From Wenyingzhuangia gilva (GTDB lineage: Bacteria > Bacteroidota > Bacteroidia > Flavobacteriales > Flavobacteriaceae): DNA of 64,000 nucleotides. Each line of letters opens with the position of its first letter. Position 1 is the first letter of the stretch. Under the pieces are notes generated by a model, which was not told where the DNA came from, searched no databases, and worked only from the letters and a program-made list of their open reading frames with translations. Shown here in pieces: positions 23,972 through 32,852 of the stretch. The translations under genes were made by a program, and so were the position numbers. Where the stretch lies: positions 186,001 to 250,000 of the forward strand of contig NZ_JAUMIT010000002.1 in assembly GCF_030519655.1 (NCBI RefSeq), given 5' to 3'.

Positions 23972-23979
23972 CAAAAATA
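23972..23979 (-). promoter_or_regulatory. Promoter -7 box for gcvP
   Basis: Minus-strand TATTTTTG, 28 bp before the gcvP ATG. It is back to back with the plus-strand box at 23996. Confidence 0.55.
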
Positions 23980-23995
23980 CGGATAATAAAAGTTT

Positions 23996-24003
23996 TATTT
24001 TTG
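23996..24003 (+). promoter_or_regulatory. Promoter -7 box for the UbiA-like gene
   Basis: Plus-strand TATTTTTG, 60 bp before the ATG at 24064. It is only 16 bp from the opposing gcvP box, so the two promoters share one short control region. Confidence 0.5.
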
Positions 24004-30388: not shown

Positions 30389-31129
30389 GTGAATATAATC
30401 AAACTTAATGCCATTGACTCTACAAATCGTTTTTTGAAAGATTTGGCAAAAAAATCGGATATAGACAACTTCACGGTAGCGGTTGCAGAAGAACAATTGG
30501 CAGGTAAAGGTCAGATGAATACCGTATGGCATTCAGAAAAAGGAAAAAACTTATTGTTTACAGTTTATGTAGAATTAAAGGGCTTATCTATAGATTTAAT
30601 CCCTTATATTAACTTTTTATCAGCTGTAAAAATAAGAGATGTGATTGATGATGTTTTAGGAAATGTTTCCAAAATAAAAGTAAAATGGCCTAACGACATA
30701 ATGTCATACAACGATAAGATTTCTGGAATATTGGTTGAGAATATTTTAAAAAAGCAACAAGTTGATGCGTGTTTTATTGGGGTGGGATTAAATGTAAATC
30801 AACTTTATTTTCCATCCCATTTAACCAAAGCCAACTCTTTGGCTAATATAAAAGGGAATGAGTTTGATAAAGAAATGGTGTTGGAGAAAATAATATTGGC
30901 TTTAGAAGCGGTAATGAATGTTGATTATATCTATAATAATTTAGAAAAAATTAAACAGGAATATTTAAATCAATTATACAAAATAAATATCCCTACAATG
31001 TTTATGGATACTGAACAAAACATTTTTATGGGGAAAATTGTTGATGTGACCAATGAAGGTCTCTTACTTTTGGAAAAAGAAAATGACTTGATATACAGTT
31101 ATGCTGTGAAAGAAATAAAATTACTTTAA
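30389..31129 (+). CDS. birA: Biotin--[acetyl-CoA-carboxylase] ligase
   Basis: 246 residues, the short class I type without a DNA-binding domain. It attaches biotin to the carboxyl carrier protein. Landmarks are IDSTNRFLKDL at 8-18, the biotinyl-AMP loop region AEEQLAGKGQMNTVWHS near 35-50, KWPNDI near 99 and GIGLNVNQ-like VGLNVNQ near 137. A small C-terminal SH3-like domain follows. The GTG at 30389 is used as start, since relatives begin just ahead of the IIKLNAIDST segment. Convergent with the SRPBCC gene, whose stop overlaps it by 4 bp. Confidence 0.95.
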   Translation: MNIIKLNAIDSTNRFLKDLAKKSDIDNFTVAVAEEQLAGKGQMNTVWHSEKGKNLLFTVYVELKGLSIDLIPYINFLSAVKIRDVIDDVLGNVSKIKVKWPNDIMSYNDKISGILVENILKKQQVDACFIGVGLNVNQLYFPSHLTKANSLANIKGNEFDKEMVLEKIILALEAVMNVDYIYNNLEKIKQEYLNQLYKINIPTMFMDTEQNIFMGKIVDVTNEGLLLLEKENDLIYSYAVKEIKLL

Positions 31130-31515
31130 ATATTTTGCAAGTTATTGCTTAAGGCATTGATAAAATTGGTCAAGGGTTTTTTTACCATCATGGCCATCAT
31201 TGGGTTAAAATTTCCTTCAAAAAATAATTGAGCAGAAGTACTATTTTCCGAAATAGCATTTAAATCAATGGTTAAAGTAAAATCTAATTTACTTGAAGCA
31301 GCACCTAAAACTATTTTATTAGTAGGTGTTTTTTCTTTTAAAATCAATCTAATTTCTGGCATCCCAGTCAAACCAAAAATAAAAGAATCTCCATCCACTT
31401 CAAACTTTTCTTTGTTGTCTGGCATCAACTGTTCAAAATTGTTTAAATCAGTTAAAAAATCAAAAGTTTCTTGGTTTGATTTAAATATGGTTACTAAAGG
31501 AGTTTCTAATTTCAT
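31126..31515 (-). CDS. SRPBCC (START-like) family protein
   Basis: 129 residues with the helix-grip pattern: an N-terminal strand with a short Lys/Glu segment, FDFLTDLNNFEQLMPDN near 18-34, beta-strands through the middle, and a long C-terminal helix (MMAMMVKKPLTNFINALSNNL). Such domains bind hydrophobic ligands. Nothing indicates which. No signal peptide. Single gene, convergent with birA. Confidence 0.8.
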   Translation of the reverse strand: MKLETPLVTIFKSNQETFDFLTDLNNFEQLMPDNKEKFEVDGDSFIFGLTGMPEIRLILKEKTPTNKIVLGAASSKLDFTLTIDLNAISENSTSAQLFFEGNFNPMMAMMVKKPLTNFINALSNNLQNI

Positions 31516-31554: not shown

Positions 31555-31590
31555 AAAAAAAGCATCTTAAAAATAATTAAGATGCTTTTT
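31555..31590 (-). terminator. Terminator of pyrE
   Basis: Stem AAAAGCATCTTAA / TTAAGATGCTTTT with a seven-base AAATAAT-type loop, just past the pyrE stop on the minus strand. Confidence 0.88.
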
Positions 31591-31597
31591 GATATGT

Positions 31598-32248
31598 TTA
31601 ATCTTCTTCGTTAGTCCATTTGTCTGGAGCTTTTCTCCAAGTTTGGATCAAGGCTAATTCACTAGAAGTAATATAATTATTTTTTACGGCTTGTTCTATT
31701 AAAACTTGATAGTTACTTAAGGTAGTTAAAGTAACATTGGCAGCTTCAAAGTTTTTGTCAGCAATAGGAAAACCATAAGTAAAAATAGCCATCATTCCTT
31801 TTACATTTACGCCAGCTTCTTTTAAGGCTTCAACAGCTAATAAACTGCTCATTCCTGTGCTGATTAAATCTTCTACCACCACTACATTAGAACCTTTCTC
31901 AAGATATCCCTCAATTTGATTCATTCTACCATGCTTTTTAGGCTCAGGTCTAACATAAACGAAAGGAATTCCTAATTCTTGAGCTACCAAAACTCCAATA
32001 GCAATAGCTCCAGTAGCAACTCCAGCAATAACATCTGGTTTACCATACTGCTCTTCAATAGCATTGGCCATATTGGTTTTTAAAAAATTTCTTATGATTG
32101 GATAAGAAAGTGTAATTCTATTATCGCAGTATATAGGTGATTTCCAACCAGAAGCCCAAGTGAATGGATTTGTAGGTTGTAGTTTAATTGCTTTTATTTT
32201 CAAAAGCTGTTCTGCGGTATTATTTGCTGTATCTTTGTTAAAAATCAT
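31598..32248 (-). CDS. pyrE: Orotate phosphoribosyltransferase
   Basis: 216 residues. It joins orotate to PRPP in pyrimidine synthesis. The PRPP-binding motif VVVVEDLISTG and the substrate loop region YVRPEPKKHGRMNQIEG are clear, as is the N-terminal ASGWKSPIYCDNR. The start is ATG at 32248 (MIFNKDTAN). The longer frame from 32308 would reach into the NUDIX gene and upstream of the promoter box. Only four bases separate that box (32253-32260) from the ATG, so the transcript is likely leaderless. No attenuator is visible. Confidence 0.96.
   Translation of the reverse strand: MIFNKDTANNTAEQLLKIKAIKLQPTNPFTWASGWKSPIYCDNRITLSYPIIRNFLKTNMANAIEEQYGKPDVIAGVATGAIAIGVLVAQELGIPFVYVRPEPKKHGRMNQIEGYLEKGSNVVVVEDLISTGMSSLLAVEALKEAGVNVKGMMAIFTYGFPIADKNFEAANVTLTTLSNYQVLIEQAVKNNYITSSELALIQTWRKAPDKWTNEED
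32230..32237 (+). promoter_or_regulatory. Promoter -7 box of the NUDIX gene, inside pyrE
   Basis: Plus-strand TATCTTTG, full TAnnTTTG match, 18 bp before the NUDIX ATG at 32256. It lies within the first codons of the divergent pyrE gene. Confidence 0.6.
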
Positions 32249-32252
32249 AGTG

Positions 32253-32260
32253 CAAATGTA
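32253..32260 (-). promoter_or_regulatory. Promoter -7 box of pyrE, overlapping the NUDIX start codon
   Basis: Minus-strand TACATTTG, full TAnnTTTG match, four bases before the pyrE ATG. The NUDIX ATG (32256-32258) is inside this box. Confidence 0.62.
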
Positions 32261-32852
32261 TAAAGTTTTTATCAATGAAGTTCCAGTTTTTTTTACAGAA
32301 AAAAACAATGAATTAACAGGTTTTTCTTCTGTGAAATATCAAGAACTTGATTTTATAAATATGTATCAAGAGATTCAAAAGAATCTCGATGCGAAAATAA
32401 ATGTTATTTGTGACAATTTGGAAAATGATTGGAGCAATTTTCTATTAAATTTTGAAGTCCGTAAAGCAGCAGGTGGTGTGGTGAAAAACGTTAGTGATGA
32501 AATCTTATGGATTTACAGATTTGATACATGGGATTTGCCAAAAGGACACATAGAAAAGGGAGAGTCTAAAGAAATTGCAGCCATTAGAGAAGTGGAGGAA
32601 GAGTGTCAAGTAACTGGATTAACTATTGATAAAGAGTTAGAAACTACTTATCATGTTTTTAAACATAAAGGAGTTTTGGTGATGAAGGTTACCTATTGGT
32701 TTGCGATGCATACGAATATTGAAAAACAAACGTTAGTTCCTCAGCTAGAAGAGGGGATTACCCAAGTAGTTTTTAAAACTTTAGAGGAATCAAAAAAATG
32801 TTTAGAGAATACTTATAAAAACATCAAGTTATTGATGGAACAGTTGTTGTAG
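32256..32852 (+). CDS. NUDIX hydrolase
   Basis: 198 residues. A leading region of about 65 residues precedes the Nudix fold. The Nudix box runs from Gly97 (GHIEKGE) to REVEEECQV at 111-119 and keeps the catalytic Glu pair 115/116. The usual Gly near its end is Gln118. It hydrolyses a nucleoside diphosphate linked to some group X; the substrate is not predictable. The ATG at 32256 is chosen because the frame further upstream lies antisense in pyrE. Starts back to back with pyrE, only seven bases between start codons. Confidence 0.92.
   Translation: MYKVFINEVPVFFTEKNNELTGFSSVKYQELDFINMYQEIQKNLDAKINVICDNLENDWSNFLLNFEVRKAAGGVVKNVSDEILWIYRFDTWDLPKGHIEKGESKEIAAIREVEEECQVTGLTIDKELETTYHVFKHKGVLVMKVTYWFAMHTNIEKQTLVPQLEEGITQVVFKTLEESKKCLENTYKNIKLLMEQLL

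Follow-up and report, generated by a model that had tools for sequence, protein, structure and literature searches.

We analyzed how transcription is likely to start between two divergent genes, pyrE and a NUDIX hydrolase gene, in a 64,000-nucleotide stretch of the Wenyingzhuangia gilva genome (the window), where the two start codons are interleaved with a pair of -7 boxes. We read this arrangement as two closely packed divergent promoters served by the Bacteroidota housekeeping σ factor, with a leaderless pyrE and a face-to-face NUDIX promoter, and give this reading a probability of about 0.7. The pyrE box is well supported by its conservation as a real promoter, old and under selection, and we interpret it as the old and compact promoter of a leaderless mRNA, nested within the start codon of the divergent gene. 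This promoter appears to constrain both the first residues of a protein and the start codon of its neighbor across wide divergence, and natural experiments—an insertion between the genes in some loci, the disappearance of pyrE in others—separate the promoter from the coding constraint. The locus thereby provides a conserved, probably leaderless housekeeping gene in a phylum where leaderless or near-leaderless transcripts make up only a few percent of the mapped mRNAs, and it offers a small system for studying polymerase competition beyond E. coli.

The pyrE gene, encoding an orotate phosphoribosyltransferase of 216 amino acids, occupies 31598..32248 on the minus strand, and the NUDIX hydrolase gene (198 amino acids) occupies 32256..32852 on the plus strand. 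The pyrE product scores 128.1 bits against TIGR00336, above the cutoff of 106.8, and 167.9 bits against the narrower model NF001729, below its cutoff of 245; its start is kept in relatives, whose homologues align starting at residue 1. The NUDIX call (PF00293, 45.4 bits against a cutoff of 21.1) is accompanied by invariant catalytic residues and a structure model, described below. Read directly, the pyrE start codon is the CAT at 32246-32248 and the NUDIX ATG lies at 32256-32258, leaving an intergenic gap of 7 bp (32249..32255). The -7 box of pyrE, TACATTTG, is found on the minus strand at 32253..32260, where it takes in the NUDIX ATG and the first two bases of NUDIX codon 2; a spacer of four bases (32252-32249) separates it from the pyrE ATG. 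The proposed -7 box of NUDIX, TATCTTTG, is located on the plus strand at 32230..32237, inside pyrE codons 4 to 7 and 18 nt from the NUDIX ATG. On each of these points—start codons seven bases apart, a pyrE box that holds the neighbor's ATG and sits four bases from its own, a NUDIX box within the first pyrE codons—the preliminary description proved correct to the base. It had also spoken of the two genes as starting "back to back," a wording to be amended for the promoters, which stand face to face. From the conserved spacer and the box-to-start spacing of F. johnsoniae, we infer that pyrE transcription starts at the A of its ATG or at the next base (32248 or 32247, minus strand); the F. johnsoniae spacing likewise predicts a NUDIX start at 32242..32243 on the plus strand, with a leader of 13 to 14 nt, and the two predicted transcripts would overlap by ~5 to 7 nt.

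On the 3' side of pyrE, a terminator-like hairpin was found at 31557..31590 (scored on the plus strand; one found, compared to a mean of 0.7 in shuffles), with both strands A-/T-rich at its ends. It is followed by a minus-strand gene at 31126..31515 that has no Pfam or NCBIfam match and that we take to be SRPBCC-like. Given its own box, TATATTTG, at 31542-31535 and the hairpin before it, this gene did not merely ride along with transcription from the pyrE promoter.

The pyrE box across relatives

Using tblastn, we located pyrE and NUDIX in genus-, family-, order-, and class-level loci, one relative search contributing its best 30 loci. Eight loci were dropped as repeats or unrelated (L001-L003, L067-L069, L079, and L083) and 12 as identical across 120 bp around the start, and the weak match L342 was left out. 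The 125 distinct order loci with pyrE comprise 113 head-to-head loci, 8 decoupled loci, and 4 unclassed ones (L027, L046, L093, and L139), with a gap of 7 assigned by hand in L030, L091, and L096. Among the 121 classed loci, the gap is 7 to 10 bp in 113 (7 bp in 107, 8 bp in 5, and 10 bp in 1) and 59 to 134 bp in the 8 decoupled ones; at the class level, 11 of the 27 loci fetched have a gap of 7 to 10 bp. Nine of the first relative loci had no nearby pyrE, and named loci in which NUDIX lacks an adjoining pyrE number 33, or 27 distinct ones after the removal of six duplicates. Because the DNA pattern used in part of the search selects the box, the 17 head-to-head loci found solely by this pattern were excluded from the set of 96 protein-found loci, which includes the window's own; they are counted among the 113 and contribute to the codon scores, in which part of pyrE codons 2 to 4 is likewise determined by the pattern. 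Kinship in this sample is considerable, with 66 of the 96 loci belonging to one genus (g35, presumably Flavobacterium).

The box TAnnTTTG precedes the pyrE ATG in 95 of the 96 protein-found head-to-head loci, with a spacer of 4 nt in 90 and of 5 nt in 5, and it is retained at 3 to 5 nt in all eight decoupled order loci. There, no NUDIX codon requires the box, and its persistence supports a promoter. Outside the order, a box lies 4 to 9 nt before the presumed pyrE start in 23 of 27 class-level loci, several of these starts being unsure. It is missing at L033 and L139 and present at L091, where the contig ends within the extracted slice. Further exact boxes occur 143 nt upstream of pyrE in two of the seven genus genomes and within 9 to 192 nt in 14 of 109 coupled loci. 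Across the seven genus genomes, the pyrE box belongs to the third-longest invariant stretch (19 nt, 32252-32270), together with NUDIX codons 1 to 5, and the second-longest (20 nt) lies inside NUDIX; the comparison is ungapped and NUDIX is three codons longer in two of the seven genomes, so late runs in NUDIX may be missed. The predicted leaderless pyrE mRNA would begin with AUGRUUUU in 85 of the 96 loci and in all eight decoupled order loci, a sequence that is not general among the class-level loci shown.

The pyrE box fits the Bacteroidota σABfr -7 consensus, TAHHTTTG, and by eye we saw no -33 TTTG on either side of the locus. In F. johnsoniae, too, the -7 box stands out far more than the -33 motif, and the distance from box to transcription start is 4 to 5 nt (PMC6847099). 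The pyrE spacer equals this distance, which makes the pyrE mRNA probably leaderless. The preliminary description had expected as much, and the conserved spacer of 4 to 5 nt, which is 3 to 5 nt after decoupling, fits it.

Two side observations concern the start codons themselves. In L209 and L217, both outside the order, the pyrE and NUDIX starts appear by eye to share a single palindromic CATG, and the ATG of this palindrome is 4 nt away from the pyrE box. In L027, L046, and L201, the expected NUDIX ATG has become AAA or ATC and the pyrE box is retained, so that NUDIX must start elsewhere.

The 8-mer carries no signal by itself; its position does. TAHHTTTG occurs 76 times in the window compared to 85.5 expected from shuffles, whereas in a 464-kb sample of this genome, with open reading frames of ≥100 amino acids called mechanically, 81 boxes lie ≤100 nt upstream of 360 ATGs compared to 23 for the reversed control. 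In that sample, (i) the commonest single spacing between box and ATG is 18 nt (6 of 81), and 37 of 81 boxes lie at 14 to 30 nt; (ii) five of the 360 reading frames, pyrE among them, have a box 3 to 5 nt before the ATG; and (iii) among 37 divergent pairs, pyrE/NUDIX is the sole one with a gap below 52 bp, besides one overlapping pair (-44), probably an artifact of the mechanical calls. Genome wide, TAHHTTTGNNNNATG occurs 68 times compared to 58 for the reversed pattern, and hence this pattern alone is no mark of a leaderless gene. Among 363 gene starts, CAAATGTA is found at one further gene, without a divergent partner (L258 17754, G000:C1), presumably Sua5/YrdC-like, and it is there a chance occurrence of the same 8-mer. 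We also observed two TATTTTTG boxes on opposite strands, at 23972-23979 (minus) and 23996-24003 (plus), which are 16 bp apart and point outward.

The NUDIX box and the pyrE codons that contain it

TATCTTTG fits TAHHTTTG and is invariant in all seven genomes of the genus, where no other exact box is found ≤250 nt before NUDIX, and it lies in the longest invariant stretch over pyrE and NUDIX together (22 nt, 32217-32238). Moreover, pyrE codons 5 to 10 form the longest run of identical codons in a gene where just 41 of 160 conserved degenerate codons are identical in all seven genomes. Conservation in related genera, which the preliminary description invoked for both boxes, holds for the pyrE box and largely fails here: the exact NUDIX box is found in 13 of the 113 head-to-head loci, and TATCTTTA is found in 22. 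None of the 66 loci of g35 and three of the 23 other protein-found loci outside the genus carry the exact box. Among 34 named head-to-head loci close to the query, it is present in 16, four of them again from the genus. We read TATCTTTG as probably a real NUDIX promoter in this genus that has been eroded elsewhere by the pyrE coding sequence.

The most serious competitor of this reading, which we nonetheless find rather doubtful, is that the pyrE box is the only promoter and that TATCTTTG is just the reverse complement of the pyrE codons N-K-D-T, with NUDIX transcribed from elsewhere within pyrE. It would account for the absence of the exact box from g35, and over 77 head-to-head loci pyrE codons 4 to 6 indeed show no synonymous excess (z scores of 0.55, 0.94, and -0.14, compared to an all-site mean of 1.9); codon 7 (ACA) reaches 6.07, and the NUDIX box uses only its first base. 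Strong synonymous conservation falls instead on pyrE codon 20 (32189-32191), which is GCA in 69 of the 77 loci, the strongest score of 182 sites, and in none of the eight decoupled order loci. Yet codon 20 is GCA also in five of the eight class-level decoupled loci shown, so these loci disagree with its TGC being a NUDIX element, and the codon is variable within the genus. Against the competing explanation also stand the identical run of codons 5 to 10, the spacing of 18 nt, which is the usual one in this genome, the lack of an alternative exact box ≤250 nt in the seven genus genomes, and the loci without pyrE described next. As a separate candidate for the NUDIX box, we rejected TTTATTTG or TTAATTTG in pyrE codons 17 and 18, where the A at the second position is missing. 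In seven of the eight decoupled order loci, TATTTTTA or TACTTTTA, not the exact box, lies at 26 to 30 nt.

When pyrE is gone from beside NUDIX, a box is present in each direction. The 33 named loci of this kind include 21 from Chryseobacterium, Epilithonimonas, or Elizabethkingia, and in all 27 distinct ones CAAATGTA still marks the start of NUDIX and a perfect TAnnTTTG lies 18 to 27 nt before NUDIX. The retained box is now 28 to 37 nt before an SRPBCC-like gene, for which it is the sole exact box in 26 of 27 loci; this neighbor is a homologue of the window's gene at 31126..31515, with 46 to 51% identity among the eight best matches shown. As for pyrE itself, a sample of 60 genomes of the corresponding family, f5, gave only weak matches, and the best matches fall within frames of ~450 amino acids. 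One f5 protein that we checked is an orotate phosphoribosyltransferase (OPRT) fused to OMP decarboxylase, and in f5 genomes, e.g., at L173, such a fusion appears to replace the stand-alone pyrE.

Predicted polymerase exclusion and the question of mutual control

The mechanism that we propose is as follows. RNA polymerase at the minus-strand box TACATTTG, whose letters are partly those of the NUDIX start codon, would initiate within one base of the pyrE A and produce a leaderless pyrE mRNA, and in the genus polymerase at the plus-strand box TATCTTTG would initiate ~14 nt upstream of the NUDIX start codon. The predicted starts are 4 to 6 bp apart and face each other, and both complexes could hardly bind simultaneously; with polymerase sites that would overlap by tens of bases, the two very likely compete for binding to the point of exclusion, provided that both promoters are used. 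At ordinary activity, this exclusion would probably have little effect and would matter only with one side strongly activated. The NUDIX box, constrained by the pyrE coding sequence, has in this reading decayed in many relatives.

A stronger interpretation, which we consider unlikely, is the mutual control proposed in the preliminary description, taken here as a switch that ties pyrimidine synthesis inversely to NUDIX activity through polymerase exclusion. Such a switch would make sense of the overlapping footprints, of two boxes that are both fixed within the genus, of the gap of 7 to 10 bp that prevails in the order and recurs at the class level, and of the pyrE-free loci, where the promoters of NUDIX and the SRPBCC-like gene face each other. 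In E. coli, such repression is seen once one side is strongly activated, but in five of five bidirectional promoters basal activity was too low for competition (PMC12825309). Furthermore, the pyrE/NUDIX arrangement has been given up repeatedly. The eight decoupled order loci form a single cluster in the pyrE tree (83 proteins, 66 with the genes close and 17 with them apart), on which the gap label needs at least three changes, two of them forced by well-supported branches; on this tree, pyrE and NUDIX came apart more than once, and we read the close gap as the ancestral state from its spread, the tree being unrooted. Both this recurrent separation and the erosion of the NUDIX box, exact in so few head-to-head loci, argue against a required switch.

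Nor did we find a functional tie of the NUDIX enzyme to pyrimidines, and gene order is all that links them. The REUXEE residues R111, E112, E115, and E116 are invariant in 30 aligned sequences, a set that includes the window's protein and two genomes present twice. The structure model (pLDDT, 93.2) has Ap4A/Ap6A (ApnA) hydrolases as its nearest structures, and the top match in the sequence search is Ndx1, named an Ap6A hydrolase. Neither search supports the candidate role of a pyrimidine enzyme, which we rejected.

Very improbable, in our judgment, is a more elaborate version in which the locus is a UTP-sensing switch as old as the class, with UTP choosing between productive and dead pyrE transcripts and setting how far NUDIX is blocked, a pyrimidine feedback without a repressor. 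If initiation moved three bases on, to the next purine, the pyrE mRNA would lack its AUG and face a U-run, and if the idea were true, the shift or slippage of the start site would act at AUGAUUUU.

One apparent mark of the divergent promoter on NUDIX is the triplet before its start codon. CAA precedes the NUDIX start in 94 of 95 protein-found head-to-head loci with a gap of 7 to 8 bp and in all 27 loci without pyrE, but in none of the eight decoupled order loci, which indicates that CAA belongs to the divergent box and not to NUDIX translation. CAA places a C at NUDIX position -3, where an A helps translation in F. johnsoniae (PMC6847099); this suggests that the promoter prevails over the translation signal at this position. 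The mark extends into the gene, where codons 2 to 5 adjoin the pyrE box on its upstream side. At codon 4, Val is encoded by GTT in 70 of 71 cases (25 expected), the top synonymous score of 159 sites on a baseline raised by the nonindependence of the relatives (mean z, 1.55), and this codon is GTT in 91 of 95 protein-found loci; codons 2, 3, and 5 are nearly fixed. That the pyrE box instead results incidentally from the coding and translation signals of NUDIX (CAA-ATG-TAT) is scarcely credible, for while Met-Tyr forces ATG-TA and Tyr2 is invariant in the 30 aligned sequences, many of them found with peptides including MYKVFINE, which select Tyr2 in those loci but not CAA, just 3 of this genome's 363 ATGs follow a CAA triplet, few of them (47 of 363) have C at -3, and the decoupled loci, each with its own TAnnTTTG before pyrE and no CAA before NUDIX, already contradict such an origin.

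Comparison with known promoter systems

One published start counts against our reading of the pyrE box: in F. psychrophilum, the pyrE start (TSS 1806311) is listed under motif SM4, of the σ54 type (PMC9723704, Table 2). In our loci, among which F. psychrophilum was not recognized, the strict σ54 motif TGG-N8-TTGC is found ≤160 nt upstream of pyrE in 0 of 164, and the bare GG-N10-GC is found in 13 of 164 at no common position. We rejected a σ54 promoter for pyrE in the sampled loci on the count for the strict motif. A search of the open-licence PMC literature yielded no published record of the pyrE/NUDIX arrangement.

Compared to Bacteroidota σABfr promoters, both boxes have the same -7 element, TAHHTTTG, and the pyrE spacing agrees with the 4 to 5 nt given for F. 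johnsoniae (PMC6847099); the window differs in that no -33 TTTG was seen and in that the boxes lie within the coding sequence of the opposite gene. Flavobacterial leaderless mRNAs are alike in a start on the ATG, which for pyrE is predicted, whereas the pyrE start listed for F. psychrophilum belongs to the σ54 type (PMC9723704, same table). Of the mapped mRNAs, 5.5% are leaderless in F. psychrophilum (PMC9723704), and 3.7% of 5' UTRs are shorter than 10 nt in B. thetaiotaomicron (PMC7366714).

The bidirectional promoters of E. coli and Salmonella also consist of two opposed, sterically exclusive polymerase sites (PMC12825309 and PMC10268837). Their starts, however, point outward and lie 7 to 25 bp apart on a near-symmetric -10 element, with a reciprocal overlap of -10 element and start, and under this definition (PMC10268837) the window's pair, with its predicted starts inward and 4 to 6 bp apart, would not be a bidirectional promoter. 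The window instead has two separate inward boxes and predicted transcripts that overlap. The older literature also has a class of face-to-face divergent promoters, in which the promoters of divergent genes are opposed and the 5' ends of their transcripts overlap. The geometry of the window would fit this class if both boxes are used, and it departs from it in having no intergenic room, each box lying in the codons of the other gene and one of them over its start codon.
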